A stretch of DNA of 64,000 nucleotides from Opitutia bacterium (GTDB lineage Bacteria > Verrucomicrobiota > Verrucomicrobiia > Opitutales > Opitutaceae), in the NCBI GenBank assembly GCA_016217545.1, contig JACRHT010000016.1, forward strand, positions 310,001 through 374,000, in the 5' to 3' direction. This document shows, in pieces, positions 48,378 through 63,894 of this stretch; positions within the stretch are counted from its first letter, which is position 1; each line of letters opens with the position of its first letter. The notes under the pieces are model-generated. The model saw only the letters and a program-made list of their open reading frames with translations. It did not search any database and was not told the origin of the DNA. The position numbers and the translations under genes were made by a program.

Positions 48378-49795
48378 CAGGATCGCGGAGTGTAGATGGT
48401 CGCTTTGAGTTGGCGAGCCAGGTGGGCACGGAAGGCGTGGATATCACGCACGACGCCGAGTCCGATTAGCTGGTTCGCCAGATTGCCGACGGCGGTGCCT
48501 TCGAGCGAATACGACACGACGGGCAGGCCGGCAGCATCGGCGGTCGCCTGGCAAAGCAGCCGGTTCTTCGAACCGCCGCCGACGATGAGGATGCGACGGA
48601 ATTTGCGGCCGGACAACCGCTCGAAACTCCGCACGGCGTCGGCGTGGCCGCGCCCGAGCGAGTCGCAGATGAGACGAACGTAGCCGGCGAGGTCGCGCGG
48701 CGGGCGCGCGCCGTTCTTCTTCAATTGCGCGTCGATCGCGGCGCGCATGTCAGGCGGGTTGAAGAGCGAGGCGTCGGTCACGTCGATGAGCTGCGCCGGC
48801 GCGGGCGCCTTTTCGGCGAGCGCGATGAGCTTCTTCCACTGCGCGGCGTTGGCCGGATGCGCGGAGAATGCCGGCAGCGTTTTCTCGAGCAGCCACAAAC
48901 CGAGACAGGAACACAGCGGCCGGTAACGGCCGTCGCCCATGCGCTCGTTCGAAATGCGCGCGGCGCGCGCCGCTTCACCGAGCACCGGCGTGTCGCTTTC
49001 GAAGCCGAGCAGCGACCACGTGCCGGAACTCAGGTAGAGATCGGAGCCGTCGGGCGCCGCCGGCATCGCGGCGAAGGCGCAGGCCGTGTCGTGCCCGGGC
49101 ACCAGCACCGTCTGGACGCCGGCGAGTTCGGGAATGTCGCGCACCGGACCGAGTTTCTGCGCGGCGAGCGCAGGTTGGCTGAACCAGTGGCGCGGGATGC
49201 CGAAGTATTTCATCGCGGCCGCCGACCACTCCGTGCTCTTCACGTCCAAAAACTGCGAGTGGCTGCAGATGGAGATCTCGTTCTCCATGCGCCCCGAGAG
49301 CAGGAAATTGAAATAATCCGCGATGAACAGGCAACGCGCCGCGGTGCGCGAGATGCCCGGACACGCGGCGAGCGTCTCCTGCAATTGGAGGCTGGTGTTG
49401 AAGACGTGACTGGGCAGGCCGGTCAGCGCGTAGATGCGGGGATAGCCGGTCTGCTCGAACTTCTTCGCGGGTTCCAGCGTGCGCCGGTCGCGGTAGGCGT
49501 GCACCGGATAAACGGGACGGCCCGACGCGTTCACCAACACGTGATCGACGCCCCACGCATCGCAGCCGACCGAGGCTAGCTTCGGGAATTGCGCCTTCGC
49601 CTTCAGCAGGCCGGCGCGGGCTTCGCTCCAGAGATACGGCAGATCCCAGTAGTCGTTCGCGCCGAGCGAGCGGAACTGGTTCGGGAACCGATGGACCTCG
49701 GTGAGTTCGAGCCGGCCCCTCGTCCAAGTGCCGACAATCACGCGGCCGCTCGTGGCCCCCAAATCGATCGCGGCACAATGGACGGTTGCTTTCAT
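48377..49795 (-). CDS. rhaB: rhamnulokinase
   Basis: 472 residues of the FGGY sugar-kinase family (E. coli RhaB is about 490). The N-terminal phosphate loop is AAIDLGATSGRVIVG, with GCDAWGVDHVLV and the sugar-site segment DYFNFLLSGRMENEISI after it. The second domain has PGHDTACAFAAMPA, LSSGTWSLLGFE and the ATP-site loop IVGGGSKNRLLCQATADAAG. It phosphorylates L-rhamnulose to L-rhamnulose 1-phosphate in the cytoplasm. It starts 4 nt after the stop of the aldolase fusion, and its stop shares one base with the lutA start. Confidence 0.95.
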   Translation of the reverse strand: MKATVHCAAIDLGATSGRVIVGTWTRGRLELTEVHRFPNQFRSLGANDYWDLPYLWSEARAGLLKAKAQFPKLASVGCDAWGVDHVLVNASGRPVYPVHAYRDRRTLEPAKKFEQTGYPRIYALTGLPSHVFNTSLQLQETLAACPGISRTAARCLFIADYFNFLLSGRMENEISICSHSQFLDVKSTEWSAAAMKYFGIPRHWFSQPALAAQKLGPVRDIPELAGVQTVLVPGHDTACAFAAMPAAPDGSDLYLSSGTWSLLGFESDTPVLGEAARAARISNERMGDGRYRPLCSCLGLWLLEKTLPAFSAHPANAAQWKKLIALAEKAPAPAQLIDVTDASLFNPPDMRAAIDAQLKKNGARPPRDLAGYVRLICDSLGRGHADAVRSFERLSGRKFRRILIVGGGSKNRLLCQATADAAGLPVVSYSLEGTAVGNLANQLIGLGVVRDIHAFRAHLARQLKATIYTPRS

Positions 49796-49799
49796 AGAA

Positions 49800-51992
49800 T
49801 CATCGCAGGAAGGCCTCGTGCAGGCCGCCGTCGACCGTGATCACCTGGCCGGTGGTCTTGCTCAGGCGCTGGGACACGAGGAGGAAATACGCTTCGGCTT
49901 GGTCGGCGGGCGTGATCGGCGCCTTCGTCAGCGTGCGGTCGGCGTAGAACTGCGCCAGTTTCTTCACGAGCGACTCGGTCGCCTCGTCGTCGGCGTAGGG
50001 AATGTTGTATTTCGCGAGCGAGCCGATGACGCGGTCGCGCGGGAACATCGCGGAGCCCTGCACGACCGTCGCGGGCGCGACGCCGTTCACCCGCACGAGC
50101 GGCGCGAGTTCGATCGCGAGTTCGCGCACGAGGTGGTTCGCGGCGGCCTTCGACGTGTCGTAGGCGACGGAGCCTTTTTTCGCGACGACGGCGTTGGCCG
50201 AGGTCGTGAGCACGAGGTTGCCGCGCAGGCCCTGCTCTTTCCAAGTCTTGGCCGCCTCGTCGCCGACGACGTAGCTGCCGGTGACGTTGATGGCGAAGGT
50301 GAGCGCCCACTTGTCGTCGGGAATGTGGCCCGAGGTGTCGCTCGGCACGAAGATGCCCGCGGTGACGCAGATGGAATCGAAGCCGCCATAGGCGAGCGCG
50401 ACGTTGTCGAGCATCGTGCGGACGGACGCGCGATCGGTGATGTTCGCCGCGAGCCCGACGGCCGGGCCGCAATTGGAAACACCCGTGCCGGCGACGCCGA
50501 TGCCGACGCCGTATTTCGACTCGATCTCCTTCGCGGTCGCCTGCGCGGCGGTCTCGTTAAGATCGACGGCGACGATGTGCGCGCCTTCCTTCACGAGGCG
50601 GTGCGCAGTTTCCTTGCCGATGCCGGAGCCGGCGCCGATCACGACGACGACTTGGCGCGCGAGTTCCTTCTCGGCGGGCATGCGCTTGAGCTTCGCTTCC
50701 TCGAGGAGCCAATACTCGATGTCGAACGCCTCCTGCTGCGGGAGCGCGATATATTTGTCGATCGCCTCCGCGCCGCGCATGACTTCGACGGCGCAGTTGT
50801 AGAATTCGGCGGTGACGCGCGACTCGGACTTGTCCTTGCCCCACGCGACCATGCCGAGGCCAGGGATCAGCACGACGGTCGGATTCGGGTCGCGCATCGC
50901 GGGCGAGTTGGCGTGTTTGCAGGCCGCGTAGTAAGCCGCGTAGTCCTTGCGGTAGGCTTCGAGGCCGTGTGCGAGTTTCGACTTCAGCTCGGCGACGGTT
51001 TCCTGCTGCGGATTCCAGTCGACGTAGAGCGGCTTGATTTTGGTGCGAAGGAAGTGGTCCGGGCACGACGTGCCGAGTTCGGCGAGACGCGCGGCATCCT
51101 TGGAATTCACGAAGCGCAGGATCTTCGCGTCGTCCTGCACGGTGCCGATGAAACGCTTCTCCTTGGAAACCTGGCCGCGGAGCCACGGCAGGATCGCGGC
51201 GAACGTCGCGCGGCGCTTCGTGTCGTCGAGCGTGGTGTATTTTTGTCCGCCGAAGGCCGCGGCGTCGCCGCCCTTGGCCGCGTAGGCTTTCTCGATGTAG
51301 GCGGAGGCTTCCTCAATGAAGGCCAGCGTGTCGGTGTAGCACTGCTTGTCGTCGTCGGCCCACGAGATGAAGCCGTGCTGGCCCATCATGATGGCGCGAA
51401 TGTTCGGCTGCTCGCGCGCGATTTTCTGCATCGCGAGGCCGAGTTCGAAGCCCGGGCGCATCCACGGCACGTAGGCCATGCGGCCGCCGAAGATTTCCTT
51501 GGTCAGCTTTTCGCAATTCGCCGACGCCGCGATCGCGATGATCGCGTTCGGGTGCATGTGATCGACGTTCTTGCCGGGCAGGAAGGAGTGCAGCGGCGTG
51601 TCGATCGAGGACGCGCGCGGGTTCAGGTTGAACGTCGCGTGCGTATACATGCCCACCATGTCGTCCTCGGCGGGCGACTTCAGGCCCTTGTCCGCGCGGG
51701 CGGCGTAGAGCGATTGGAGGCCGACGAGCTTGCTCTGGTAGAGCGACGAGAAGTTCTCGCGCGTGCTCGTGCGGAGGTCGCCGCCGGAGCCTTTGACCCA
51801 GAGAACCTCCGTCGGCTGGCCGGTCAGCGGGTCCTTTTCGGTGAGCTTCGAGGACGTGTTGCCGCCGCCGGTGTTGGTGATGCGTTGATCGCTGCCGAGG
51901 AGATTGGAGCGATAAACGAGGCGGGCGACGGGATCGAGGGACGCCGCTTTGGCGTCGTCCCACAGATAGTTGACGAATTGGTAGGAAGGCAT
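49800..51992 (-). CDS. rhaEW: bifunctional rhamnulose-1-phosphate aldolase / short-chain dehydrogenase
   Basis: 730 residues in two domains. Residues 1 to about 440 are a class II aldolase domain (NTGGGNTSSKL, WVKGSGGDL, and probable zinc ligands in VDHMHPNA at H145 and H147 and in GQHG at H206). Residues 450-730 are an SDR domain with the dinucleotide loop GAGSGIG at 453-459, S598, Y611 and K615 (YDTSK). This is the RhaEW-type fusion known from Bacillus: the aldolase gives dihydroxyacetone phosphate and L-lactaldehyde, and the SDR part oxidises lactaldehyde to L-lactate. All catalytic residues are present. It lies between rhaA (31-nt gap) and rhaB (4-nt gap). Confidence 0.93.
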   Translation of the reverse strand: MPSYQFVNYLWDDAKAASLDPVARLVYRSNLLGSDQRITNTGGGNTSSKLTEKDPLTGQPTEVLWVKGSGGDLRTSTRENFSSLYQSKLVGLQSLYAARADKGLKSPAEDDMVGMYTHATFNLNPRASSIDTPLHSFLPGKNVDHMHPNAIIAIAASANCEKLTKEIFGGRMAYVPWMRPGFELGLAMQKIAREQPNIRAIMMGQHGFISWADDDKQCYTDTLAFIEEASAYIEKAYAAKGGDAAAFGGQKYTTLDDTKRRATFAAILPWLRGQVSKEKRFIGTVQDDAKILRFVNSKDAARLAELGTSCPDHFLRTKIKPLYVDWNPQQETVAELKSKLAHGLEAYRKDYAAYYAACKHANSPAMRDPNPTVVLIPGLGMVAWGKDKSESRVTAEFYNCAVEVMRGAEAIDKYIALPQQEAFDIEYWLLEEAKLKRMPAEKELARQVVVVIGAGSGIGKETAHRLVKEGAHIVAVDLNETAAQATAKEIESKYGVGIGVAGTGVSNCGPAVGLAANITDRASVRTMLDNVALAYGGFDSICVTAGIFVPSDTSGHIPDDKWALTFAINVTGSYVVGDEAAKTWKEQGLRGNLVLTTSANAVVAKKGSVAYDTSKAAANHLVRELAIELAPLVRVNGVAPATVVQGSAMFPRDRVIGSLAKYNIPYADDEATESLVKKLAQFYADRTLTKAPITPADQAEAYFLLVSQRLSKTTGQVITVDGGLHEAFLR

Positions 51993-52023: not shown

Positions 52024-53280
52024 TCAGCGGCGCTGCGCGAGCACTTCGCGCTCGTAGCGTGTCACCGCCGGGAGCCACTGGCGGTCGCCGGGCACATTGG
52101 CGCGGCGGCAGTGCTCCTCCCAGATGGCGCCGAGCGGGAGCGTCTTGAGCTCCTCCAGCAGCGCGAGGCGGCCCGTGTGGTCGCCGGCCGCTTCGAGATC
52201 GCGGAGGCGCTGCGACGGCTCGAGCAATGCGGAGAGCAGGCACTTCTGGGCGTTGCGCGTGCCGATGACCCAGGCCGCAACGCGGTTGATGCTCGCGTCG
52301 AAGTAGTCGAGGCCGATGGCCGTGCGCGGGAGAAAGCCGCCGCGAACGAGTTCCTCGAACAGCGCCTTGGTGACGTCGTCGAAGAGCACCACGTGATCGC
52401 TGTCCCAACGGACGCCGCGACTCACGTGCAGCAGCAGGCCGGGGGCAAATTGCAGCACAGCGGAAATCTTGTCCGCGACCGACTCCGTCGGGTGGAAGTG
52501 CCCCATGTCGAGGCAGAGCATCTTTTTCCGGGTGACGGCGTAGCCCAGGTAGAATTCGTGCGAGCCGACGACGTAGCTCTCGGAGCCGATGCCAAAGAGC
52601 TTCGACTCGACCGCGTCGCGGTGAACGCGTTCATCGATTTGCTCCTTGAACACGGCGTCGAGCGACTGCTCGAGGCGCTCGCGCGGGCCCTTGCGGTCGG
52701 CGGGCAGGTCCTTGTGGCCGTCGGGAATCCAGACGTTCGTCACCGTCGGCGTGCCGAGCGCCTGTCCCATCGCCGCGCCGATGCGGCGGCACGCGATGGC
52801 GTGCTCGATCCAAAACTGGCGGATGGCGGGCTCCCGATGCGAGAGCGTGAAACCGTCGTTGGCGAGCGGATGCGAGAAGCACGTCGGGTTAAAGTCGAGG
52901 CCCATGCCGCGCTGCTTCGCCCAGTCGATCCAGCTCTGGAAATGCTCCACGCCGATCGCGTTGCGATCGACCTTCTTGCCGCCGAAGTCGCCGTAGATCG
53001 CGTGCAGGTTCAGGCGGTGCTTGCCCGGGATGAGCGCGAGCGCGGCGTCGAGGTCGCTGCGCAGTTCGGCGAGCGTGCGCGCCTTGCCGGGATAGTTGCC
53101 CGTCGCCTGGATGCCGCCGCCTTCGAGCGTGGCGCCGGCGCGCTCGAAGCCACCGACGTCGTCGCCTTGCCAGCAGTGCAGCGAGATCGGCGTGCGCGCG
53201 AGCGTGGCCAGCGCGGCCTCGGTATCGACGCCGAGCGCGGCGTAGGTTTCACGGGCGGAATCGTAGAGCGAGGCAGTCAT
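52024..53280 (-). CDS. rhaA: L-rhamnose isomerase
   Basis: 418 residues, the same length class as E. coli RhaA (419). The start at 53280 ([20 protein letters not shown]) is preferred over an upstream in-frame GTG at 53355, because the predicted transcript starts near 53332. Family blocks are [16 protein letters not shown], then [51 protein letters not shown] and [20 protein letters not shown]; they include the metal and sugar ligands. It converts L-rhamnose to L-rhamnulose in the cytoplasm. First gene of a six-gene operon; its promoter has the shared operator described at 53339-53401. Confidence 0.95.
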
Positions 53281-53338
53281 GGAGGATGCAGCATTTGCCG
53301 CGGAGCGGCGGGGTGGACGGAAAGCAGCGTAGCCCGTC

Positions 53339-53401
53339 AGTCTACAGTGGAGCACAGCGGCCGGGAATCCGCGCGATGATCTTTGGAATACAGAAATTGC
53401 C
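53339..53401 (-). promoter_or_regulatory. rhaA promoter with shared 25-bp operator (site a)
   Basis: Read on the - strand, a 25-bp site (53401 to 53377) begins GGCAATTT and ends CCAAAGATCA. It is followed after 9 nt by a -35-like TTCCCG (53367-53362), a 17-nt spacer and a -10-like TAGACT (53344-53339). Predicted start of transcription is near 53332, which leaves a leader of about 50 nt before rhaA. The site recurs upstream of the GH2 gene and in front of the lactonase gene with the same 32-nt distance to the -10. On the + strand a weak TTGGAA-N18-CATATT (53383-53412) overlaps the site and could serve the divergent esterase gene. Confidence 0.72.
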
Positions 53402-53494
53402 TAGGACATATTCGTCCGGTTTCGAGTCGCCAAGCGCCGCGTCGTCCGTTGAATCCGGCTTGGTCGCTCCTCCCCCGCGGCGGCCGCGCCTCCC

Positions 53495-54985
53495 ATGCCC
53501 TGCCCTGTCCTTTTCCGCCGCGGTGTCTGGCTCTGCCTCGCCGCTTTCCTTGCGGCCTCACTGCGCGCCGACGTGCGTTGCGCCAAGCTGTTCACCGACC
53601 ACATGGTCCTCCAGCGCGAGCGCCCCGTCCCGATTTGGGGCACCGCCACGCCGGGCGAGAAGATCGCGGTCGCTTTCGCCAACCAAACCAAGGAGACCGT
53701 CGCCGCGACCGACGGCGCGTGGCGCATCACGCTCGATGCGCTGGCAACGAGCGCGGAGCCGCGCGAACTCGTCGTGCGTGGCGCGAACAAGGTGACCTTC
53801 CGCGACGTGCTCGTGGGCGAAGTCTGGTTCGCCTCCGGCCAATCCAACATGGAGAAGCCGCTCGGCGAGCGAAAGGGCCAGAAGCCCACGACCGGCTACG
53901 ACCTCGAGATCGCCGCCGCGCGCTATCCGCTGCTGCGCCTGTTTCAGGTGCCGCGCACCGACCTCAAGCAGGACGGCGCGGGCGTCTTCCGCTGGTTGCC
54001 GTGCTCGCCCGAAACATTGCGCGAGTCGAATTTCTCGGCCGCGGCCTACTACTTCGGCTGGCAGGTGCAGCAAACGCTCGGCGTCCCCATCGGCATCATC
54101 CACTCCAGCTTCGGCGGCACGCGCATCGAGGCGTGGCTGCCGCCCGAGGCCTTCGCCGACCCGCAACTCGCCGGACTCGAAAAGGAGCACTACGCCGCCT
54201 GGGTGCCCGGCGTGCAACCGACCGAGCTTTTCACGAGCATGGTTCGTCCCTACGCACCGTTCGCCGTGCGCGGCTTCCTCTGGTATCAGGGCGAGACCAA
54301 CTGCATGGTGCCCGACTCCGACCGCTACGCGCACAAGCTCACGACGCTGATCGCGCACTGGCGTCGCGTGTGGGGAAACGCCGACGCGCCGTTCTACGGC
54401 GTGCTGCTCGCGCCGTTCGACTACTCGAAGTGGGAGAAATTCGCCACGACCGAGCTCGCTCTGCCGCGCTTCTGGCAGGCGCAAATCGAAGCGCTCTCCG
54501 CCCCGCGCACCGGCTACGCCGTCATCAGCGACGGCGTCGACGATCTCCACGACATCCATCCCGTGAACAAGCGCGTCGTCGGCGACCGTCTCGCGCGCCT
54601 TGCGCTGAACGAGACCTACGGCCGCACCGACATCGCCGCGCACGGACCAACGCTCGCGAGTTGGAAAGTCGACGGTGCCGCTCTCGTCGTCACGTTTGCC
54701 CACGCGGAAGGCCTGCACACGCGCGACAACCTGCCGCCGACCGACTTCGCCGTCGCCGGCACCGACCACGTCTTCCATCCCGCCCAAGCGACGATCAAGG
54801 ACGCAACGATCACGCTCACGTGTCCCGAAGTTCCCGCGCCGATCGCCGCACGCTTTGGATGGCACGAGACCGCGCGCCCGAACCTCGTCAACCGCGCCGG
54901 CCTCCCCGCCACGCCCTTCCGCACCGACGACTGGCCGGTGAAGATCGATCGTCCAGTTTCCAAGCCGCTCGAGATGCGGCCCTGA
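53495..54985 (+). CDS. exported sialate O-acetylesterase-like SGNH hydrolase
   Basis: 496 residues with a signal peptide (LCLAAFLAASLRA). It is a SASA-domain (CAZyme-associated) esterase: DHMVLQRERPVPIWGTA at the start of an N-terminal beta-sandwich, then VWFASGQSNME with the nucleophile S117, VRGFLWYQGETN, and DLHDIHPVNK with D353 and H355 completing the triad. In polysaccharide loci such enzymes remove acetyl groups from sugars; rhamnogalacturonan is a reasonable target given the rha operon next door, but this is inference. It is divergent from rhaA, with the shared operator in the 214-nt gap between them. Confidence 0.88.
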   Translation: MPCPVLFRRGVWLCLAAFLAASLRADVRCAKLFTDHMVLQRERPVPIWGTATPGEKIAVAFANQTKETVAATDGAWRITLDALATSAEPRELVVRGANKVTFRDVLVGEVWFASGQSNMEKPLGERKGQKPTTGYDLEIAAARYPLLRLFQVPRTDLKQDGAGVFRWLPCSPETLRESNFSAAAYYFGWQVQQTLGVPIGIIHSSFGGTRIEAWLPPEAFADPQLAGLEKEHYAAWVPGVQPTELFTSMVRPYAPFAVRGFLWYQGETNCMVPDSDRYAHKLTTLIAHWRRVWGNADAPFYGVLLAPFDYSKWEKFATTELALPRFWQAQIEALSAPRTGYAVISDGVDDLHDIHPVNKRVVGDRLARLALNETYGRTDIAAHGPTLASWKVDGAALVVTFAHAEGLHTRDNLPPTDFAVAGTDHVFHPAQATIKDATITLTCPEVPAPIAARFGWHETARPNLVNRAGLPATPFRTDDWPVKIDRPVSKPLEMRP

Positions 54986-55003
54986 TCGCGATCACATCCA
55001 TAA

Positions 55004-55076
55004 GCGTGAGGCTTGTGTCGGAATGGAAGCGGAGCGCAAATCCGGGGCACAGGCACAACAGCCTTGAGCCTCACGC
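55004..55076. repeat. 10-bp perfect inverted repeat after the esterase gene
   Basis: GCGTGAGGCT (55004-55013) and its exact complement AGCCTCACGC (55067-55076) are 53 nt apart in the 144-nt gap between the esterase and GIY-YIG genes. There is no T-tract, so it is not a typical terminator. It may mark the boundary of an inserted segment. Confidence 0.5.
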
Positions 55077-55111
55077 ACTTTGCCGCACCCTCACCGCCAC
55101 GGGCCAAACCA

Positions 55112-55129
55112 CAGTGAATTTTTTCACTG
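55112..55129. repeat. A/T-rich hairpin immediately before the GIY-YIG gene
   Basis: CAGTGAA (55112-55118) and TTCACTG (55123-55129) pair perfectly around a TTTT loop and abut the ATG at 55130. The stretch is far more A/T-rich than the rest of the window. It could hide the translation start in mRNA or bind a protein. Confidence 0.55.
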
Positions 55130-55717
55130 ATGCTGAATAACACTGTTAGGCAAAACCAGCACGTGCTTATCAAAAATTACGGTCGTCTATGGAAGCGCAG
55201 CGCCGTCGAATGGCGCGGTGGTCGACTTCGCCGTGGCGCTCTTTTGGGAATCGGAGAAAAAAATAAAAGCGGCGGTGATTTTCGCGACCAGATCGCGATC
55301 TACATTCTCCATGACGCGGCGTTTGTGCCGATCTACGTAGGCCAGACCGGCTCGAAGGAAGCGCGGTTGTTTGACCGGCTTGCGGCGCACAATCGCAATC
55401 CGAAGATGGGACAGTGGGATTTCTTCAGTTGGTTCGGTTTTCGCGAAATGGATCAAAATGGTTTTCTGGTTGCGCACACCGAATCGACGGCTCTTTCGCG
55501 TGCTCAAGCTTTGGATGAAATTGAGTCGCTCCTCATCCTTTTACTAGAGCCGAAGCGCAATCGTCAGACCGGACGATGGAAGAGTGTAGAAGAGTTCTTT
55601 CAGATGGCTTCGAAGGAAGCCTGGGGTTATTCGAACAACGACATCCACAAGCGCCTCGTGAGAATCGAAGAGCTACTTCAAAAGAAAGGCCGAACAAGTA
55701 GGAATGGGAAAGCGTGA
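55130..55717 (+). CDS. GIY-YIG nuclease-fold protein
   Basis: 195 residues. From about residue 50 the protein reads DFRDQIAIYILHDAAFVPIYVGQTGSKEARLFDRLAAHNRN, then WDFFSWFGFRE, ALDEIESLLILLLEPKRNRQ. This has the two GIY-YIG strands in the variant form IYIL and IYVGQT, the conserved arginine helix, and the glutamate (EIES) and asparagine expected of the nuclease fold. The N-terminus has LIKNYGRLWKRSAVEW. The start could be ATG 55130 or GTG 55163. Codon use and base composition are clearly less GC-rich than in all neighbours, and inverted repeats lie just upstream, so recent horizontal acquisition is likely. Its role (repair, mobile element or defence) is unknown. Confidence 0.82.
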   Translation: MLNNTVRQNQHVLIKNYGRLWKRSAVEWRGGRLRRGALLGIGEKNKSGGDFRDQIAIYILHDAAFVPIYVGQTGSKEARLFDRLAAHNRNPKMGQWDFFSWFGFREMDQNGFLVAHTESTALSRAQALDEIESLLILLLEPKRNRQTGRWKSVEEFFQMASKEAWGYSNNDIHKRLVRIEELLQKKGRTSRNGKA

Positions 55718-55917
55718 GAGGTCCGCGTTGCCGTAGAGGGCGTGCGGTTCCACTCCCCGCCTTGTGGGCACGAACGAACTGACGATCGGACCAGACCTCG
55801 GCCCCCCCGGCATCACATGTGCGTCCTCTAGACTTCGGGCGAGATTCTCACCGAGGAAGTCATCCCCAGCCCCGCGAGTGCCTCGCCGCCGACGCCGCGC
55901 GCTAGCGTATGCCAGAA
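55718..55917. other. gap between the convergent GIY-YIG and GH42 genes
   Basis: These 200 bases separate two convergent genes. I see no coding frame with family support, no T-tract terminator and no clear repeat. The - strand is open across it in one frame, but this is common in the window and does not resemble a protein I know. Confidence 0.6.
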
Positions 55918-58059
55918 TCAGCGCGAGGGTAGAGCGACAATGCGACGGCAAAGCACCGCGACGCCGTAGCGGGGCAGATTGAGCTTGGTCACCTCGCCTC
56001 CGTTCAGGACGTCGGTCATCGGTGCGGGCAACGCGATGTCCTGCGGGCCGGCGGAGAAATTCGTGAGGATGTAGACTTCGCGATCGGCCGCGACGCGACG
56101 GCCGACGCTGACGCGCTCGGGCACGCCGATGACCGGCGCATCGACCTTTGCGAGTGCGGTCCACTGCTTCGCGAGTGCCTGCATCAGCGGCTGATCGACA
56201 ACCGCGCCGAGGTAGGTGATCGTGCCCTTCCCCACCGGGCGACGGAGCGCCGCGGGCTGGCCGGCGAGCCAGTCGTTGCCCGGGCCGTAGCGCAACGGGA
56301 CCTCGATCTCGCCTGCGGAAGCTGAGCGCTGAGGGCTGAACGCTGAAAGCTGCGCCGCGGTCAGCGGCGCCAGCGTCTCCGCCCACACCGTCGCGCGGCC
56401 ACTGCCCCACTCGCCGGTGACCGGCACGTCTTCGAGCAACGCGTAGAATTGCTCCACGCGACCGCCGAGCGGGGCCACGAGCGGGCCGGGCTGGCGCTGG
56501 GTGTTGAGCGCGTTGAATTCGTTCTTCATGCCCGTGCGCGGACCGAGGACGAGATGGCCGCCAGCTTCGACCCATGCGGTGAGCTTCGCCGCCAACTCCG
56601 TGGAAACGACGTTGAGGCTCGGGGCGACGATCAGCTTGTAGCGGGCGAGGTCCATCGCGGGCGTGACGATGTCGACCGACTGCGTCTGCTGCCGCAGCGC
56701 CTTGTAGTAGCTGTGCAGCACTTCGAGCTGTTCGTAGCGGTTGCTGAAGCGATTGAAGTCGATCGCCCAGCGGCTGTCGTAGTCGTGGATCAGCGCGACC
56801 TCCGCGACCGGCGAAGTGCCCGCGATCACCGGCGCCGCCTGCGCGAACTCGCGTCCCGCCTGCGCGGCCTCGGCGTAAACCGGCACGGGCTCGCCGTCGG
56901 GGCCGACGAGCGAGCCGTGGTATTGCTCCTGCCCGTTCAACGCGCTGCGCCATTGCCAGTAGGCGACGCAATCGGCGCCGTGCGCGACCGAGTGCCACGC
57001 CATCGCGCGCGTCTCGCCTCGGTCGAGCGAGTTGCTGACGCTCGACCAGTCGACGAAACCGGGCGGCATCTCCAGCACCCAGAAATTCCGCTGCTTCCAG
57101 CCGCGCACGAGATCGTGCGTCGAACCGCTGCGGTCGGGATCGAGGTGCCCGGTGCCATTGCGCGAATTGTCGGCGTAGCCGGCGCCGAGGTATTCGTCCC
57201 ACGAGATGACGTCGTAGTCGGCCGCGATGAGCTGGCGGTTGAAACGGTTCGCCCAGCCGACGCCGCCGAGATTGGTCGTGATGAGCTGGCGCGGCTCCAC
57301 GTGCGCGCGCAGCACCGCGATCTGGTTGCGCTGGAAGGCGAGCCACGTGTCCGTGACGTAGCGCTTGTAGTCGAGCAACAGGCCCGGATTGGCGCGTCCC
57401 GTGGTCATCGGAATCTGGTTCCACTGCGAATACGTCTGGCTCCAATACGCGGTCATCCAGTGGCGGTTCAACTGGTCGAGCGAGCCGTAGCGCTGCTCCA
57501 GCCACACGTGCCAGCCGCGCTTCGATTCGTCGTCGAACGAGTCTTCGGTGAACTCGTTGCCGATCTGCCACGCGACAACGTTCGGATTCTGGCCAAAGCG
57601 CTGGGCGAGCTGCGTGACGATCCGCGCGCAGAGTTCGCGGTATTTCGCGCTCGCGATGGAAAAGTGCCGGCGCGAGCCGTGCTGGAGCTGCTTGCCGTCC
57701 TCGCTGACGCGCAGGACCTCGGGATATTTCGTCGTCAGCCACGCCGGCGGCGTGTCGGTCGGCGTGCCGATGATGGTGACCATGCCGTGGCGCGCGGCCG
57801 CAGCGACGGCGCGCTCCATCCAGTCGAGTTGGTAATTGCTCTCGGACGGCTCGAGGCTGCTCCACGCGAATTCGCCGATGCGCACCATGTTGAGTCCGGC
57901 GGCCTGCATGCGCGCGAGATCGGCCTCCCACGTCGCCTCCGACCACTGCTCGGGATACCACGCCGCGCCATACATGAGCGGCGGGACGTTCGCGGCCCGC
58001 GCGACGAGCCCGAGCGTGAGAAGCGTGACGACCGAAACGAGACGGCGGAAGGTGGACAT
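55918..58059 (-). CDS. exported GH42 beta-galactosidase
   Basis: 713 residues with a signal peptide (VVTLLTLGLVARA). The GH42 TIM barrel starts MYGAAWYPEQWSEATWEADL. The general acid is E169 in WQIGNEF and the nucleophile is E330 in FWVLEMPPG. A flavodoxin-like trimerisation domain follows from about residue 400 (VAEVALIHDYDSRWAIDFNR, KLIVAPSLNVVS), then a C-terminal beta domain ending LPRYGVAVLCRR. It should release terminal beta-galactosyl units from galactan or arabinogalactan side chains outside the cytoplasm. The start is 12 nt after the stop of the GH2 gene, so the two form an operon. A heptanucleotide repeat lies inside the gene at 56321-56355. Confidence 0.93.
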   Translation of the reverse strand: MSTFRRLVSVVTLLTLGLVARAANVPPLMYGAAWYPEQWSEATWEADLARMQAAGLNMVRIGEFAWSSLEPSESNYQLDWMERAVAAAARHGMVTIIGTPTDTPPAWLTTKYPEVLRVSEDGKQLQHGSRRHFSIASAKYRELCARIVTQLAQRFGQNPNVVAWQIGNEFTEDSFDDESKRGWHVWLEQRYGSLDQLNRHWMTAYWSQTYSQWNQIPMTTGRANPGLLLDYKRYVTDTWLAFQRNQIAVLRAHVEPRQLITTNLGGVGWANRFNRQLIAADYDVISWDEYLGAGYADNSRNGTGHLDPDRSGSTHDLVRGWKQRNFWVLEMPPGFVDWSSVSNSLDRGETRAMAWHSVAHGADCVAYWQWRSALNGQEQYHGSLVGPDGEPVPVYAEAAQAGREFAQAAPVIAGTSPVAEVALIHDYDSRWAIDFNRFSNRYEQLEVLHSYYKALRQQTQSVDIVTPAMDLARYKLIVAPSLNVVSTELAAKLTAWVEAGGHLVLGPRTGMKNEFNALNTQRQPGPLVAPLGGRVEQFYALLEDVPVTGEWGSGRATVWAETLAPLTAAQLSAFSPQRSASAGEIEVPLRYGPGNDWLAGQPAALRRPVGKGTITYLGAVVDQPLMQALAKQWTALAKVDAPVIGVPERVSVGRRVAADREVYILTNFSAGPQDIALPAPMTDVLNGGEVTKLNLPRYGVAVLCRRIVALPSR
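56321..56355. repeat. imperfect heptanucleotide repeat inside the GH42 gene
   Basis: Five units of GCTGxxx in a row (GCTGAGC, GCTGAGG, GCTGAAC, GCTGAAA, GCTGCGC) on the + strand. In the GH42 protein this encodes a low-complexity stretch, LSAFSPQRSASA, on the opposite strand, between the trimerisation and C-terminal domains. The frame is kept, so the repeat appears to sit in a tolerant linker. Confidence 0.8.
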
Positions 58060-58071
58060 GCGAAGTGTGGT

Positions 58072-60492
58072 TCAGCGCGCGGCGGCGCGCAGGTTGACGG
58101 TGACTGGTTTCAATTTCGGCGCGGAAACCCGCACGACGATCTCGCCGCCCTTCTCTTTCGAGCGAACGACGGCGAGCGCGCGACCTTGACAAAGCGAACG
58201 ACGCGGCCCGAGATAGGACTCCTTCGACGTGAGGTCGGCGTTGCCGAGCGCGAGCAACGTCGCGGCGCCCGACACCTCGACCGTGACGGGCAAATCCGCC
58301 GTCGGCACCCACTCGCCTTTCGCATCGAGCGCCTCGATCGTCACGTAAACCAAATCCTGCCCGCCGGGGCGGACGCGCGTCAGGTCCGGCGTCGCGCGCA
58401 GCGCCGTGACCTTTCCGGCCGTGCGCAACGCGAAGCGCTCGACCTCGCGTCCGTCCTTGAGGCCAATGGCCACCAGCTCGCCCGGCGCGTAGGCGACGGC
58501 GAAACGCGCGCGGAATTCGTGCGCGCGGTCCGTGGGCTGTTCGCCGAGCGACTTGCCGTTCAGCTCGAGCCGCACCGCGTCGTAGCGCGAGTAGACTTCC
58601 ACGTTCAGCTCCTTTCCGTCGCGACCGGGCCAGGTCCAGCTGGGGAGCGCGGGCGGCATCGACCACGGCGTGACGTTCCACGGACGACCGTCGGAGGTGG
58701 GCGCGACGACGGCGGCGTAAAGTTTCTCGCCGCGATCCCACACGATGTTGCGGTAGTGCGAAATCGGTTTCCGCCAGCCGATGAGATCAATGTCGCCACA
58801 GGCCGCGCCGTGCCACGGCCACATGTTGCCCTCCCAGTGCTTCACGGCGGGTTCGTCCGGCGGGAAGACGCGGCCGATGCCGGCTTCGCCGAGATAATCC
58901 AGCGCGCTCCACACGAAATCGCCGACGACGTAAGGCTGCTCCTGCACGATCATCCAATTGGCGAACACTTCGGACTGATACGATTCCGCCGCGACGATGA
59001 CGCGCTCCGGCAGACGCGCATGGTCGCCCGCGTGCTGCGCGGCCAATTCATAGTTGTAGCCGGCGAGGTCGAGCGCGGCGAAGAGCGGATCGAGTTGCTC
59101 CCAGTTGCCATTCTTGCCGGCCCCGTTCACGCCCGCCGACACGGGGCGCGTCGCGTCGAGCGAACGCACGCGACCGGCCAGCTCACGCGCGATGCGCTGG
59201 CCGTCGGCGGTGGTGCGCTCGAACATCTCGTTGCCGATGCTCCAGATGACAACCGACGGGTGGTTGCGGTCCCGCTTCACCCACGCATCGACGTCGCGCT
59301 GCCACCACTCGGCGAAGAGCACGCTGTAGTCGTGCTTGGTCTTCCCCTTCGCCCAGCCGTCGAAGATCTCGTCCATCACGAGCACACCGAGCCGGTCGCA
59401 AGCGTCGAGGAACGCCCGCGACGGCGGATTGTGCGCCGTGCGCACCGCGTTGAAACCCTCCGCCTTCAGCAGCTCGACCTTGCGCTCCTCAGCGCGATCG
59501 AACGCCGCGGCACCGAGGATGCCGGTGTCGTGGTGCACGTTGCCGCCGTTGAGCTTGATCGGCGCGCCGTTGAGTTCGAGGCCGCGCGCGGCCGTCCAAC
59601 GCAGTGTGCGAATGCCGAAGACGGTCGAGTATTCGTCGACCAGCTCCTTGCCGTCAGTGAGGCGCACGGCCGCGCGATAGAGCGCGGGCGACGCCGGCGA
59701 CCACGCCTGCGGTTGCGGGATTTTCGCCGTGACGCGAAACACGGAGTCGACGCCGGACGGCGCCACGACGGCGGTTCGCGTCTGTGCGACGCGTTTCCCC
59801 GTCGCGTCGAAAAAGCTGATCTCGGCCGCCAGCTTGCGCTCAGTCTCCCCGCGATTGGTCACCGTCGTCTCCACCTCGAGCGTCGCCTCGGCGGCGCTCA
59901 ACGCGGTCGTGGTGACAAAAACCCCGTCCGCCGCCACATGCACCGGCGCGGTGACGTGCAGCGTCACGTGGCGATAGATGCCGGAGCCAGTGTAGAAACG
60001 CGCCGTCGGCTGCGCCGAGTGGTCGACGCGCACGGCGAGCAGGTTCTCGGCCGCGAGCTTCAGGTGCGGCGTGAGTTCGACCGTGAACGGCGTGAAGCCG
60101 TAGGGATGCCGCCCGACCGAGACTCCATTGATGAAAACCTCGGCGTTCATGTAGACGCCCTCGAATTCGAGCGTCACGCGCTGGCCCGCCCACGATTTCG
60201 CGGCGCGAAACGTCTTTCGATACCAGCCGATCCCGTTCTCGAAAAACCCGCCGTGTCCCGCGGAAGCGGCGTCCTTTCGCACCGGCAACTCGATGCTCCA
60301 GTCGTGCGGCAGATCGAGCGCGCGCCACTTGGCGTCGTCGAAGCCCACCCCGGCCGCGCCGGCCGGATCGCCGAATCGGAACTTCCACTGCGCGTCCCAC
60401 AGGTAGCGCTCCCGCGCTCCCGCCCACGGAGCGACGAGCAGGATCAGGAGGACCGCGACGAAGCGAAAACGGAAGGGGTGAAGAATCAGCAT
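58072..60492 (-). CDS. exported GH2 beta-galactosidase-like enzyme
   Basis: 806 residues with a signal peptide (FVAVLLILLVAPWAGA). Domains in order: sugar-binding jelly roll about 30-195 (LPHDWSIELP, FEGVYMNAEVFINGVSVGRHPYGF), Ig-like about 200-295, and a TIM barrel from about 297 (LNGGNVHHDTGILG, RTAHNPPS, VLVMDEIFDGW). The acid/base is E422 in IWSIGNEM, the nucleophile probably E503 in AAESYQSE. C-terminal beta domains follow (residues 600-806). The substrate is probably a beta-galactoside, but beta-glucuronidase or other GH2 activities cannot be excluded. It is the first gene of the GH2-GH42 operon, read from the promoter at 60554-60616. Confidence 0.92.
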   Translation of the reverse strand: MLILHPFRFRFVAVLLILLVAPWAGARERYLWDAQWKFRFGDPAGAAGVGFDDAKWRALDLPHDWSIELPVRKDAASAGHGGFFENGIGWYRKTFRAAKSWAGQRVTLEFEGVYMNAEVFINGVSVGRHPYGFTPFTVELTPHLKLAAENLLAVRVDHSAQPTARFYTGSGIYRHVTLHVTAPVHVAADGVFVTTTALSAAEATLEVETTVTNRGETERKLAAEISFFDATGKRVAQTRTAVVAPSGVDSVFRVTAKIPQPQAWSPASPALYRAAVRLTDGKELVDEYSTVFGIRTLRWTAARGLELNGAPIKLNGGNVHHDTGILGAAAFDRAEERKVELLKAEGFNAVRTAHNPPSRAFLDACDRLGVLVMDEIFDGWAKGKTKHDYSVLFAEWWQRDVDAWVKRDRNHPSVVIWSIGNEMFERTTADGQRIARELAGRVRSLDATRPVSAGVNGAGKNGNWEQLDPLFAALDLAGYNYELAAQHAGDHARLPERVIVAAESYQSEVFANWMIVQEQPYVVGDFVWSALDYLGEAGIGRVFPPDEPAVKHWEGNMWPWHGAACGDIDLIGWRKPISHYRNIVWDRGEKLYAAVVAPTSDGRPWNVTPWSMPPALPSWTWPGRDGKELNVEVYSRYDAVRLELNGKSLGEQPTDRAHEFRARFAVAYAPGELVAIGLKDGREVERFALRTAGKVTALRATPDLTRVRPGGQDLVYVTIEALDAKGEWVPTADLPVTVEVSGAATLLALGNADLTSKESYLGPRRSLCQGRALAVVRSKEKGGEIVVRVSAPKLKPVTVNLRAAAR

Positions 60493-60553
60493 GGACGCGA
60501 ACGGAAGTGTTGCCGAAACCGCCGGGGTGACGAGTGCGCAATCGCGTGCAGTT

Positions 60554-60616
60554 ACTGTATGGCAAAGGCTTGCCCTCGGGAATATCCGGCCTGATCTTTG
60601 GCATCCAATAAATGCC
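60554..60616 (-). promoter_or_regulatory. GH2 promoter with shared 25-bp operator (site b)
   Basis: On the - strand the site (60616 to 60592) begins GGCATTTA and ends CCAAAGATCA. It is followed by 9 nt, -35-like TTCCCG (60582-60577), a 17-nt spacer and -10-like TACAGT (60559-60554), predicting a leader of about 55 nt before the GH2 gene. The site is nearly palindromic: 60596-60604 pairs with 60612-60620 with one mismatch. The right arm includes the ATG of the divergent AraC-type gene at 60612, so binding here should also affect that gene. Confidence 0.75.
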
Positions 60617-61538
60617 CAAGCCGCCGCCCGACTATTTTCGCTACTTCCCGGACCACCCGGATATCGCGCGGTGGGGTGTCGGTGTCGCGGCCTGCGGCAC
60701 CGCCCGCGTCGCGCCGGGCGCCCCCTACCCGCCCCAGCAACACCCGGCGGATCACCATTTCGACTGGTCGCACGGGCGCGTGCTCGATGCCGTCCAGATC
60801 GTGCTCATCACGTCCGGCCGCGGCACGTTCGAGTCGCGCGAGCTCGGACGCCACGAGATCGAAACCGGCACCGCCGTGCTGCTGCTGCCGGGCATGTGGC
60901 ACCGCTACCGGCCCGACGACAAAACCGGTTGGTCCGAGAGCTGGGTGGAATTGCGCGGCCCGGTCGTCGACACGCTGCGCAAGTCCGGCGTGCTCGCCGT
61001 CGGGAGCGCGATTCGCACGGCCGCGCTCGCGGCCGGGTTGGACGGCGCGATGGACACGTTGCATCAACACGCGCGGCGCGCGGGGCCGGGATTCGATCCG
61101 GAGATGTCCGCGTTCGCACTGAGCATCCTCGCCGCGTGGGTCCGCGCGGGCGAGACGGCGCCGGCGCGCGCGCGCATGGTGCGCGCCGTCTTGCAGGCGG
61201 AGCGGTATTTCGCCGACCACCACACCGAAGCGGTGAACGTCGAGGCGTTGGCCAAGGAGCTCGGCGTCGCCTACTCGCACTTCCGCCGCGAGTTCAAGGC
61301 CCAGACGGGATTCTCGCCATGGAACTACGTCGTGCACCTGCGCCTGTCGCGCGCGCGCCGTCTGCTCGCCGCCGGCGACGCGACGCTGGACGACATCGCG
61401 GCGCGCCTCGGTTTCAGCTCGGCATTCCACCTCTCCAGCGCGTTCAAACAGGCCTACGGCATCGCCCCGCAGCACTGGCGTGACCAACTGCGAAAGACCT
61501 CGCGACCGGGGGGAATCCCTCCCGAACCGGCCGGCTGA
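60612..61538 (+). CDS. AraC-family transcriptional regulator
   Basis: 308 residues. The N-terminal half (about 45-150) is a cupin-like sugar-sensing domain: GRVLDAVQIVLITSGRGTFE, then GTAVLLLPGMWHRYRPDDKTGW. The C-terminal ~100 residues hold the double helix-turn-helix: VNVEALAKELGVAYSHFRREFKAQTG followed by TLDDIAARLGFSSAFHLSSAFKQAYG, and the family's closing P.HWR. It is divergent from the GH2-GH42 operon and is the only regulator gene near the rha genes, so it is the best candidate to read rhamnose or a related sugar and act at sites a, b and c. The ATG at 60612 is the only usable in-frame start near the N-terminus and lies inside site b. Confidence 0.92.
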   Translation: MPKPPPDYFRYFPDHPDIARWGVGVAACGTARVAPGAPYPPQQHPADHHFDWSHGRVLDAVQIVLITSGRGTFESRELGRHEIETGTAVLLLPGMWHRYRPDDKTGWSESWVELRGPVVDTLRKSGVLAVGSAIRTAALAAGLDGAMDTLHQHARRAGPGFDPEMSAFALSILAAWVRAGETAPARARMVRAVLQAERYFADHHTEAVNVEALAKELGVAYSHFRREFKAQTGFSPWNYVVHLRLSRARRLLAAGDATLDDIAARLGFSSAFHLSSAFKQAYGIAPQHWRDQLRKTSRPGGIPPEPAG

Positions 61539-61545
61539 CGCTGTT

Positions 61546-61608
61546 GGCATTTTTTGTAGGCAAATGATCAAGCCCCCCATGGCCACCGAGCCCGCCATGC
61601 GGTATGCT
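61546..61608 (+). promoter_or_regulatory. promoter with shared 25-bp operator (site c)
   Basis: On the + strand the site (61546-61570) begins GGCATTTT and ends AAATGATCA. After 9 nt comes a weak -35 (TGGCCA, 61580-61585), a 17-nt spacer and a good -10 (TATGCT, 61603-61608). The geometry equals that of sites a and b to the base. It starts 7 nt after the AraC gene stop. Transcription would begin near 61615 toward the lactonase gene at 61868, with a leader of about 250 nt. Confidence 0.68.
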
Positions 61609-61867
61609 GCCAACGTCGGGAGGGGATTCCGGCGCGCCGCGGGGGTGGCGCGCCGGTTTTCTTCTCCGACACCCCTCGCGGAGCCACATGCCTCCCCTCA
61701 CCCCGAATCTGCCGCGCGGCTCCGCTGATCCCGGAAGCTTTGGGCAACGCACCACCACAGCCGTCGCGCTGCGTCACGACGGCGCCATGACCGCCTCGCA
61801 CTGCGGCCCGCTCCCGTCCCGCAGGCCCTGCGCCTCATCCGCCGCTGCGTCTATCGCCTGATCCGCC
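61609..61867 (+). other. long leader between site c and the lactonase gene
   Basis: The gene-free stretch from the AraC stop to the lactonase start is 329 nt. It holds site c, then a strong terminator, then about 200 nt in which I see no family-supported gene. A 57-codon frame (ATG 61688, stop 61859-61861, 6 nt before the lactonase start) is present; its composition (many S, P, A, R) gives no sign of selection. It could be a leader peptide or noise. Confidence 0.45.
61629..61665 (+). terminator. intrinsic terminator or attenuator in the lactonase leader
   Basis: CCGGCGCGCC (61629-61638) pairs perfectly with GGCGCGCCGG (61647-61656) around an 8-nt loop and is followed by TTTTCTTCT. This is a strong rho-independent terminator. 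It lies about 90 nt after the AraC gene stop but only about 14 nt after the start point predicted from site c. Confidence 0.85.
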
Positions 61868-62704
61868 ATGCACCTCGTCGACACTCACCAACATCTCTGG
61901 GACCTCGACCGGCTCCCGTATTCCTGGTGCGCGAGCATTCCCGTCCTGCATCGAAGCTTTTCCCTCGCCGACTACCGCGCCGCGAGTGAGAGCACGGGAA
62001 TCACCAAGACGGTTTTCATGGAATGCGACGTGGACGATCCCCATCAGCGCGCCGAGGCGGATCACGTCCAACGACTCGCCGACACCGACCCGCTCATCCA
62101 AGGCATCGTCGCGAGCGGACGACCGGAAAACGCGGGTTTCCGCGATCATCTCCGCGCGCTCGCGCGGCTGCCGCGCCTCCGGGGCATTCGCCGCGTGCTG
62201 CACGTCAAGCACGACGACCTGTGCCTCGAACCCCGCTTCGCGGAAAACCTCCGCCTGCTGCCGGACTTCGGGCTGACGTTCGACGTGTGCGCCTTGCCCC
62301 GACAACTGGCCAACGTGCGCACGTTGGCCGAGCGCTGCCCGCAGGTGACCTTCATCGTCGACCACGTCGGCGTCCCCGACGTGAAAAATCGCATGGACGA
62401 ACCGTGGCGCAGCGGGCTGGCGCGCCTCGCCGACCTGCCCAACGTGAATTGCAAGATCAGCGGCCTCGTCGCCTACGCCGACGCCGCAACGTGGACGCCC
62501 GAGCATCTCCACCCGTATTTCGAGCACGCCGTCGCGTGTTTCGGTTGGGAGCGCCTGGTGTGGGGCGGCGATTGGCCGGTGTGCACGCTCTCCGCGCCGC
62601 TCGCCCGCTGGGTGGACGCCACGCACGCGCTCACGGCCAGCGCCACGCCCGCGCAGCGCGCCCTCCTCTACCACCGCAATGCCGAGCGCCTCTACCGGGT
62701 TTGA
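61868..62704 (+). CDS. amidohydrolase-2 family sugar lactonase (rhamnono-/fuconolactonase type)
   Basis: 278 residues of the COG3618 amidohydrolase group. Motifs are VDTHQHLWDL (metal-binding HxH), then FMECDVDD, VASGRPENAGFRDHL, GIRRVLHVKHDD, DVCALPRQL, FIVDHVGVPD, KISGLV and LVWGGDWPVC with the catalytic aspartate. Characterised relatives hydrolyse L-rhamnono- or L-fuconolactones in oxidative deoxysugar breakdown. Together with the phosphorylated route encoded by rhaA, rhaEW and rhaB, it suggests that the cell handles a second, non-phosphorylated sugar or lactone. It has a 92-nt gap to the following glycosidase-like gene and lies behind site c. Confidence 0.85.
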   Translation: MHLVDTHQHLWDLDRLPYSWCASIPVLHRSFSLADYRAASESTGITKTVFMECDVDDPHQRAEADHVQRLADTDPLIQGIVASGRPENAGFRDHLRALARLPRLRGIRRVLHVKHDDLCLEPRFAENLRLLPDFGLTFDVCALPRQLANVRTLAERCPQVTFIVDHVGVPDVKNRMDEPWRSGLARLADLPNVNCKISGLVAYADAATWTPEHLHPYFEHAVACFGWERLVWGGDWPVCTLSAPLARWVDATHALTASATPAQRALLYHRNAERLYRV

Positions 62705-62796: not shown

Positions 62797-63894
62797 ATGC
62801 GACCCCTGCTGCCCGCTCTCGTGTTTCTGGCCTGCGCGCTCGTCGCCACCGCGGCGCCACGTCCCGAGGTGATCCCTTTCCCGACCGGAAAACCGCGACT
62901 CGTCGGAGCCGAAGCGATGCAACGCATCCACGACGAAGTGAAAACGCCCTTCAAATACGGCGTCGTGCTCCGCGGCGAACCGGGCGAACTCGTCGATTGC
63001 CCCAATGTGTTCCGCCGCGACGGCCGCTGGTATATGGTCTACGTCGCGAACAAGGACAAGGTCGGCTACCAAACCTGCCTCGCCCGCAGCGACGATCTCC
63101 TCCACTGGGAAAAACTGGGGCCGATCCTCTCGTTCCGCCGCGAGGGCTGGGACGCCTGGCAGGCCGCCGGCGGACTCGCGCTCTACGACACGCGCTGGGA
63201 CGGCACGCACGAGCTGACCGCGCACGACGGCCGCTACTGGCTCTCCTACCTCGGCGGCGCGAAGCAAGGCTACGAACCCGACCCGCTCGCCATCGGTCTC
63301 GCGCACACCGACGATCCAACCGCCGTGCGCGAGTGGACGCGCCTCCCGGAAAACCCCGTGCTCGCGCCGGACCAGAGCGACACGCGCGACTTCGAACACG
63401 TGACGCTCTACAAGAGCGCGATCGTTCGCGACGAGGCGCGCACCCTCGGCGCGCCGTTCGTGATGTTCTACAACGGCAAATCCGCGCCCAACGGCGTCGA
63501 GACGATCGGCCTCGCGATTTCAGACGACCTCCACTCGTGGCGCCGCTTCGGCCACGGCCCCGTCGTGGCCAACATCGGCGCCGCGCCGTGGGCGATCAGC
63601 GGCGACCCGCAGCTCACGCGGATCGGCGACGTGTGGGTGATGTTCTATTTCGGCGCGTTCTGGAAGCCGGGCGCGTTCGACACCTTCGCCTGCTCCTACG
63701 ACCTCGTGCACTGGACCAAGTGGGACGGCCCGCACCTCGTGGCCCCGAGCGAGCCCTACGACCGGCAGTTCGCGCACAAGCCGTGGGTGTTGAAACACGA
63801 CGGCGTCGTCTACCATTTCTACTGCGCCGTCGGCGCCGAGGGCCGCGTCATCGCCCTCGCGACCTCGAAAGACCTGCACGCCCCTTCCCCATGA
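62797..63894 (+). CDS. exported five-bladed beta-propeller glycosidase-like protein (GH43/GH130-type)
   Basis: 365 residues from the ATG at 62797 with a signal peptide (LPALVFLACALVATAA). The rest is a repeated blade pattern: CPNVFRRDGRWYMVYVANKD, then CLARSDDLLHWEKLGPIL, GRYWLSYLGGAKQGYE, APFVMFYNGKS, LAISDDLHSWRRFGHGPVV, DVWVMFYFGAFW and DGVVYHFYCAVG. These are typical of GH43/GH32/GH130 propellers. Acidic residues such as D in DCPNVF and E in DFEHVTLYKSA are at plausible catalytic positions, but I cannot assign the family with certainty. The stop overlaps the start of the next gene in ATGA. Confidence 0.82.
   Translation: MRPLLPALVFLACALVATAAPRPEVIPFPTGKPRLVGAEAMQRIHDEVKTPFKYGVVLRGEPGELVDCPNVFRRDGRWYMVYVANKDKVGYQTCLARSDDLLHWEKLGPILSFRREGWDAWQAAGGLALYDTRWDGTHELTAHDGRYWLSYLGGAKQGYEPDPLAIGLAHTDDPTAVREWTRLPENPVLAPDQSDTRDFEHVTLYKSAIVRDEARTLGAPFVMFYNGKSAPNGVETIGLAISDDLHSWRRFGHGPVVANIGAAPWAISGDPQLTRIGDVWVMFYFGAFWKPGAFDTFACSYDLVHWTKWDGPHLVAPSEPYDRQFAHKPWVLKHDGVVYHFYCAVGAEGRVIALATSKDLHAPSP

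Follow-up and report, generated by a model that had tools for sequence, protein, structure and literature searches.

In Escherichia coli, the direct half-sites of the araBAD promoter lie upstream of the -35 and touch it, and AraC bound at araI1-I2 holds RNA polymerase at the promoter. For Bacillales, Bacteroides and Enterococcus, Rodionova et al. 2013 describe RhaR regulons of AraC type whose operators are direct repeats of 21-bp periodicity, and their introduction notes that the sites of E. coli RhaS and RhaR are inverted repeats (PMC3870299). In a Chthoniobacteraceae genome, from Verrucomicrobiota, LutABC has been placed in one operon with a rhamnulokinase gene, so that this link is already in print and is not new here; the terms regulon and AraC do not occur there (PMC11596606). 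A literature search over titles and abstract openings found no paper describing the operator presented below, and none on such a sugar regulon in this bacterial group.

Here we analyze a 64,000-nt stretch (the window) of the 5.09-Mb genome of an Opitutia bacterium (genome G000), in which three similar sites, a, b and c, stand in front of proposed promoters, with a gene for an AraC-family protein (60612-61538, plus strand) among them. We consider it very likely that the three sites are operators of this protein, a probable rhamnose-responsive activator widespread in the family. The argument draws on features present in the sequence itself: the sites and their spacing, their conservation, an internal repeat, covariation between protein and site, co-occurrence of the two, and the target genes. 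By this evidence we describe a real AraC-type rhamnose regulon, ordinary in kind, with an unusually clean operator-promoter layout that resembles the one at araBAD. It offers a sharp, testable model of how sugar genes would be controlled in this group, at the level of both operator and promoter.

The proposed operators and their promoters

A sequence-only reading of the window had proposed a 25-bp operator shared by three promoters, and the sites were located exactly as it had placed them: the cores occupy 53377-53401 (minus strand, upstream of rhaA) for a, 60592-60616 (minus strand, reading into a GH2 gene, GH being glycoside hydrolase) for b, and 61546-61570 (plus strand) for c. They agree pairwise at 20, 19 and 20 of 25 positions, 17 of the 25 being common to all three. 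Its promoter geometry was confirmed for all three as well, with a -35-like hexamer starting 9 nt past the terminal GATCA, a 17-nt spacer, and a -10 hexamer starting exactly 32 nt past GATCA. The -35-like hexamer is TTCCCG at both a (53362-53367) and b (60577-60582), as claimed, and TGGCCA at c (61580-61585); the -10 hexamers are TAGACT (53339-53344), TACAGT (60554-60559) and TATGCT (61603-61608), each on the strand of its operator.

The similarity of the three sites is not due to chance, because the pattern GGCAWTTNNTGNANNCMAANGATCA, allowing up to three mismatches, finds three matches in the window against none in 100 shuffles, and because scans of the whole genome with this pattern and with a promoter model both return the same three sites. 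The pattern gives six matches in the genome, a, b and c with no mismatch and three others with three, and a reversed-pattern control gives none there. The model, R1 (68 positions), was built from 42 promoters, none of them from G000 or from G040 and G096, two other species of the same genus, and three of them from further species of that genus. Its matches in the genome up to E = 10 are a (4.1e-8), c (1.3e-6) and b (2.8e-5) only, 150 of 377 first-look candidates having been scored; a genome-wide matrix scan was among the checks that the sequence-only reading had proposed. The three additional matches with three mismatches are not matched by R1, and we take them as chance; at this stringency GGCAWTTNNTGNANNCMAANGATCA is unspecific, with matches in 165 of 200 family genomes, so that only matches with no or one mismatch are informative.

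Site and spacing are also kept in relatives, a further check proposed by the same reading. All three promoters are present in G040 and G096, and their arrangement there is unchanged. Over G000, G040 and G096, promoter a is identical at 21 of 25 core positions, 7 of 8 in the GATTCC block and 6 of 6 in the -10, with 7 of 17 in the spacer; the corresponding figures for promoter c are 22 of 25, 4 of 8, 6 of 6 and 5 of 17. At promoter b the spacer is also kept (16 of 17), perhaps because it is overlapped by the leader of the AraC-family gene. That spacer contains an inverted repeat, GGCAAgcctTTGCC (60561-60574, minus strand), which is perhaps a second regulator's site. The three sites all lie within 8.2 kb, and a recent local duplication devoid of function might be invoked for their similarity; we give this hardly any credence, since it is refuted by the retention of each site in three species while the spacers diverged at a and c, and since other genera carry the site at loci that are unlinked.

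The operator itself proved longer than proposed. Across 77 collected sites, column self-similarity is best at a shift of 21 (0.135; next, shift 9, 0.091), and information peaks at CATTT, TGTAT, AAA, ATCA and ATTC. Consequently, although the sites are real, 25 bp is too short a length for them: the operator measures about 38 bp and consists of two direct half-sites 21 bp apart, GGCATTTTnTGTATGnnAAA and GATCATTnnnnnGATTCC, each with an A-box and a B-box, running to GATTCC so that its last box, the second B-box, overlaps the proposed -35. So defined, the operators, each supported by pattern scans, R1 and three-species footprinting, extend over 53363-53401 (a), 60578-60616 (b) and 61546-61584 (c, where the second B-box is degenerate).

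Spacing was examined in other genomes with a core-only matrix trained on the nine cores of G000, G040 and G096, with no promoter columns and a match threshold of at least 10 bits. In 44 loci, 40 picked by similarity of the AraC-family protein alone and four (L046-L049) by a core-pattern match, it gave 54 matches against 7 in shuffled copies (694,561 bases, shuffled base-wise and not preserving dinucleotides). Of these loci, 42 contain an AraC homologue, and in 36 of them (34 among the 40 picked by protein alone) a match lies within 80 bp of the start of its gene; all 36 sites are oriented away from that gene. Together with three sites from L046 and L047 they make up a set of 39 promoters, which includes sister species and three loci of the window's genus and hence does not amount to 39 independent events. 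In this set TANNNT begins 32 nt past the core in 32 promoters and 33 nt past it in seven, while no other offset between 15 and 54 has it in more than two; six of the seven with the longer distance align with an 18-nt spacer. The base-exact 32-nt spacing thus holds in most promoters and gives way to 33 nt in seven. Furthermore, TTC begins 9 nt past the core in 32 of the 39 (TTC or TTT in 37), and no other offset between 0 and 29 has TTC in more than four. Judged by how far it lies from the -10, this fixed TTC would be the -35, and its constant place corresponds to the class II arrangement, in which the activator site touches the -35.

The proposed regulator, an AraC-family protein

The protein encoded at 60612-61538 carries an N-terminal AraC_binding domain (PF02311, 54.9 bits, cut-off 21.1) and paired C-terminal helix-turn-helix (HTH) motifs (HTH_18, 76.7 bits, cut-off 33.6; HTH_AraC, 55.8 bits in two stretches), and it matches 13 distinct PDB sequences, several of AraC type (AraC, MarA, SoxS). 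Along with tandem half-sites about 21 bp apart and a site touching the -35, these are the features of the AraC/XylS family. The proposal that this gene encodes the regulator gains support from adjacency, co-occurrence and covariation; the proposed activator-type site touching the -35 is also supported by sequence evidence.

R1 was run over 252 family genomes with strict filters, by which weak matches are lost, and found a site at E <= 0.05 in 64. Sixty-six of the genomes have a homologue of the AraC-family protein at E <= 1e-60 and 186 do not. A site at E <= 1e-3 is present in 47 of the 66 and in 1 of the 186 (G028), a difference that is partly built in, since most of the training sites of R1 stand beside such a homologue, which favours the former figure. 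At E <= 0.05 the counts are 53 of 66 and 11 of 186. Among the more distant AraC relatives at L038-L043, with best segments 29-35% identical, no site was found.

The shared site might belong instead to another regulator or to a global factor, with the AraC-family gene a mere neighbour. This would fit the 31 of 77 collected sites that lie away from an AraC start, and the few genomes that have a site and no close homologue. We regard it as quite unlikely, given that a site stands beside the homologue in 36 of 42 loci with fixed orientation, that 30 of 46 such sites stand at an identical base offset, and that the two strongest covariation signals fall in the HTH motifs of this very protein. A 21-bp direct repeat is, moreover, of AraC type in the regulons described in the main text of PMC3870299. 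Since many cores overlap the start codon of the AraC-family gene, coding constraint could account for part of their conservation; but of the 31 sites that do not adjoin an AraC start, 24 keep CAT at the same place.

Operator b covers the start codon of the gene, with a TAA stop directly upstream in frame. Because of this overlap, and because the offset is the same in 30 of 46 cases, bound protein would limit its own synthesis, and negative autoregulation is probable.

Covariation was scored on 44 pairs of regulator and operator, one of an initial 45 having been dropped as nearly identical to another. The top corrected value among variable residue-base pairs links H223, in the first motif (HTH1), to operator base 21, in the A-box of the second half-site (Z 22.8). 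The pairs count H-A 31, Y-G 9, H-G 3 and L-G 1, so that Y or L goes with G in 10 of 10 and H with A in 31 of 34; the Y/L-G pairs are at AraC-adjacent sites of L109, L110, L114-L118, L120, L166 and L171. Second by corrected score is L274, in the second motif (HTH2), with base 36, in the B-box. By the colinear PDB ranges, and if the alignment is gapless, H223 and L274 correspond to MarA positions 43 and 94, which we take to be near DNA contacts. On a tree from which the HTH columns had been removed, the residue-223 trait changes four times and the base-21 trait five times, in the same direction where both differ. It is possible that residue 223 and base 21 form a piece of an AraC recognition code, for which regulator-operator pairs with apparent covariation between recognition-helix residues and bases would be useful material.

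Besides the bias in R1, several observations weigh against assigning the sites to this protein as activator. Nineteen of the 66 homologue genomes have no site at E <= 1e-3, and the 11 of 186 others noted above have one at the looser threshold; four of the 42 homologue loci (L105, L112, L119, L121) have no AraC-adjacent site with either matrix. Other high-scoring covariation involves V193 (third), G24 (fourth) and D59, all outside the HTH motifs, and because the third and fourth pairs lie there, descent contributes to the covariation. The tree yields three well-supported independent pairs for H223 and base 21, about two concordant and none opposite, too few for significance, and L274 with base 36 is weaker still. 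Site c is without the second B-box, and a consensus scan of 60480-61900 found no sigma-70-type promoter at b or c.

The reading we prefer, with the AraC-family protein as activator, can nevertheless be set out as a mechanism. HTH1 would recognize the A-boxes, which are of RKCA type, and HTH2 the B-boxes TAT and GATTC; with the second B-box lying on a poor -35 (TTCCCG), the activator, once bound, would keep RNA polymerase at the promoter in the class II mode.

Target genes and the probable inducing sugar

Downstream of operator a, on the minus strand, lie rhaA for L-rhamnose isomerase (52024-53280; 418 aa from the ATG used in relatives; 676.2 bits, cut-off 572), rhaD for a bifunctional rhamnulose-1-phosphate aldolase/short-chain dehydrogenase (49800-51992; 994.4 bits, cut-off 567.75), a rhamnulokinase-like rhaB (48377-49795; its best family, at 341 bits, below the NCBIfam cut-off of 527.95), and a lutA/lldE-like gene whose product has two CCG stretches in the domain scan (47595-48377). 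These are followed by lutB-like (46198-47571) and lutC-like (45590-46258) genes, both putative, of unsure start, and assigned by their place in the gene order and by features typical of such subunits. Intergenic distances are 31 nt for rhaA-rhaD, 4 nt for rhaD-rhaB and -1 nt for rhaB-lutA. This contiguous rhaA-rhaD-rhaB-lut order recurs in L049, L114 and L118, and in G163 an AraC homologue is divergent to rhaA-rhaD-rhaB-lutABC with a site in between. The putative lactate genes, which the sequence-only reading had counted in the regulon, join it through this operon, and its rhamnose theme is supported by sequence evidence. Divergent from rhaA across site a, a SASA-type esterase gene (53495-54985) may share the control region.

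Operator b precedes genes, also on the minus strand, for a GH2 beta-galactosidase-like protein (58072-60492, from library scans) and a GH42 beta-galactosidase (55918-58059, from a domain scan). The galactan theme suggested for the regulon is weakened by the fact that, among the sites collected, GH2-GH42 follows a site only in G000, G040 and G096, that is, in one genus.

Taking as first gene the longest open reading frame (ORF) of at least 110 codons starting within 700 nt after the -10, a rule that at window site c picks the glycosidase frame and not the nearer lactonase, we found one after 76 of the 77 sites. RhaA, RhaB, RhaD and GH2 were named by BLAST to the window proteins and the rest from one representative per cluster. 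The clusters are arabinose-isomerase-like (22), RhaA (11, including three at site a), GH106 (7), TonB receptor (5, 3 and two single), RhaB (3), GH2 (3, from the window's genus), RhaI-like (2), RhaD (1) and others. Rhamnose-polymer genes could in this way be predicted by site rather than by annotation.

We infer that the protein binds these sites and activates, with L-rhamnose or an early intermediate as inducer. The regulator could, less probably, sense another sugar or oligosaccharide (fucose, arabinose, galactose, rhamnogalacturonan pieces), the rhamnose genes being one of several target sets. The largest target cluster, which is Arabinose_Iso_C-like, speaks for this and against rhamnose, as do the GH2-GH42 pair and a fucono-lactonase-like gene in the window. 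We hold it as doubtful in view of the rhamnose genes themselves. In 17 of 76 promoters the gene after the site is RhaA, RhaI-like, RhaB or RhaD, and behind the arabinose-isomerase-like gene come RhaT and GH106 in L084 and an alpha-L-rhamnosidase in L092. Of the 66 homologue genomes 59 were tested: RhaA is present in 46 of these, and a RhaI-like protein, in every case scoring below its curated cut-off, in 13; 58 have at least one, one having both and one, 65% complete, neither. Across the family RhaA is present in 113 of 252 genomes, 46 of 59 against 67 of 193 (p = 5e-9, descent not corrected). The 476-aa isomerase-like protein in L084 (7940-9370), with weak Arabinose_Iso_C similarity, was considered as a general missing rhamnose isomerase and rejected, since 25 of 38 genomes having it also have RhaA; of the 13 without RhaA, 12 have a RhaI-like protein.

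Promoter c had been thought probably to drive the plus-strand genes for an amidohydrolase most like L-fucono-1,5-lactonase, below the cut-off of the library scans (61868-62704), and a GH43/GH130-like protein (62803-63894), and this is not well supported. Operator c starts 7 nt past the AraC stop codon, and 20 nt past its -10 a terminator-like element (61629-61663, plus strand), a 12-bp GC-rich stem with a T-run, faces the promoter, which counts against its serving those genes. Three roles are conceivable for this element: terminator of the AraC-family gene, which transcripts from c would have to pass, attenuator, or 3' boundary of a small RNA. Its sequence, GGATTCC through TTTTCTT and with the loop, does not differ between G000, G040 and G096 and occurs once in the genome; no match within three mismatches was found in the other 10 genomes of the genus, some of them incomplete. 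Because this block is identical in the three species while the promoter c spacer and the DNA further downstream diverged, and because other genes come first after c in G096, we suggest, tentatively and with the odds against it, that c makes an activator-controlled RNA of about 50 nt ending at 61629-61663, a small regulatory RNA or conditional attenuator, and does not serve the lactonase-glycosidase genes directly. Pairing of such an RNA with the esterase leader (53495) was the best of 14 gene starts, at an energy reached by 0.5% of 600 random windows; we do not claim it, because 14 starts were tried and the GC-rich hairpin is involved. An Rfam scan of 53000-62000 gave nothing at the gathering score and two matches below it. 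The regulon may nonetheless extend to the lactonase-glycosidase unit, because in G096 RhaT is among the genes that follow c on the same strand and comes just ahead of the lactonase homologue, and in G029 (L085) a homologue (67%) of the glycosidase directly follows an AraC-adjacent site. In G000 the regulon would comprise the rhaA-rhaD-rhaB-lutABC operon and GH2-GH42, with the unit downstream of promoter c as a possible third member.

Comparison with described AraC-type systems

With E. coli RhaS and RhaR this regulator shares the AraC family and, as proposed here, activation of a rhamnose operon. It falls outside the enterobacterial RhaS/RhaR equivalogs, being far under the curated NCBIfam cut-offs (RhaS 66.9 versus 288 bits; best RhaR model 41.7 versus 363) and having a direct instead of an inverted repeat as operator. 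From araBAD the locus differs in its genes and its regulator, and R1 finds no match in the E. coli K-12 araBAD stretch. Operator identity is 7-13 of 31 in six registers, too low to fix the alignment register, and the register of best identity is another than the one anchored on GCATTTTT. With the GCATTTTT anchor, the distance between the start of the site and that of the -10 is 57 bp in both systems, and the distance to the -35 is 33 versus 34 (K-12 record compared).

The RhaR regulons of PMC3870299, whose main text contains neither 'Opitutus' nor 'Verrucomicro', are likened to ours by general features. At that level the correspondence covers an AraC-family regulator, the 21-bp direct-repeat periodicity of the operator, and rhamnose genes together with glycoside hydrolases as targets.

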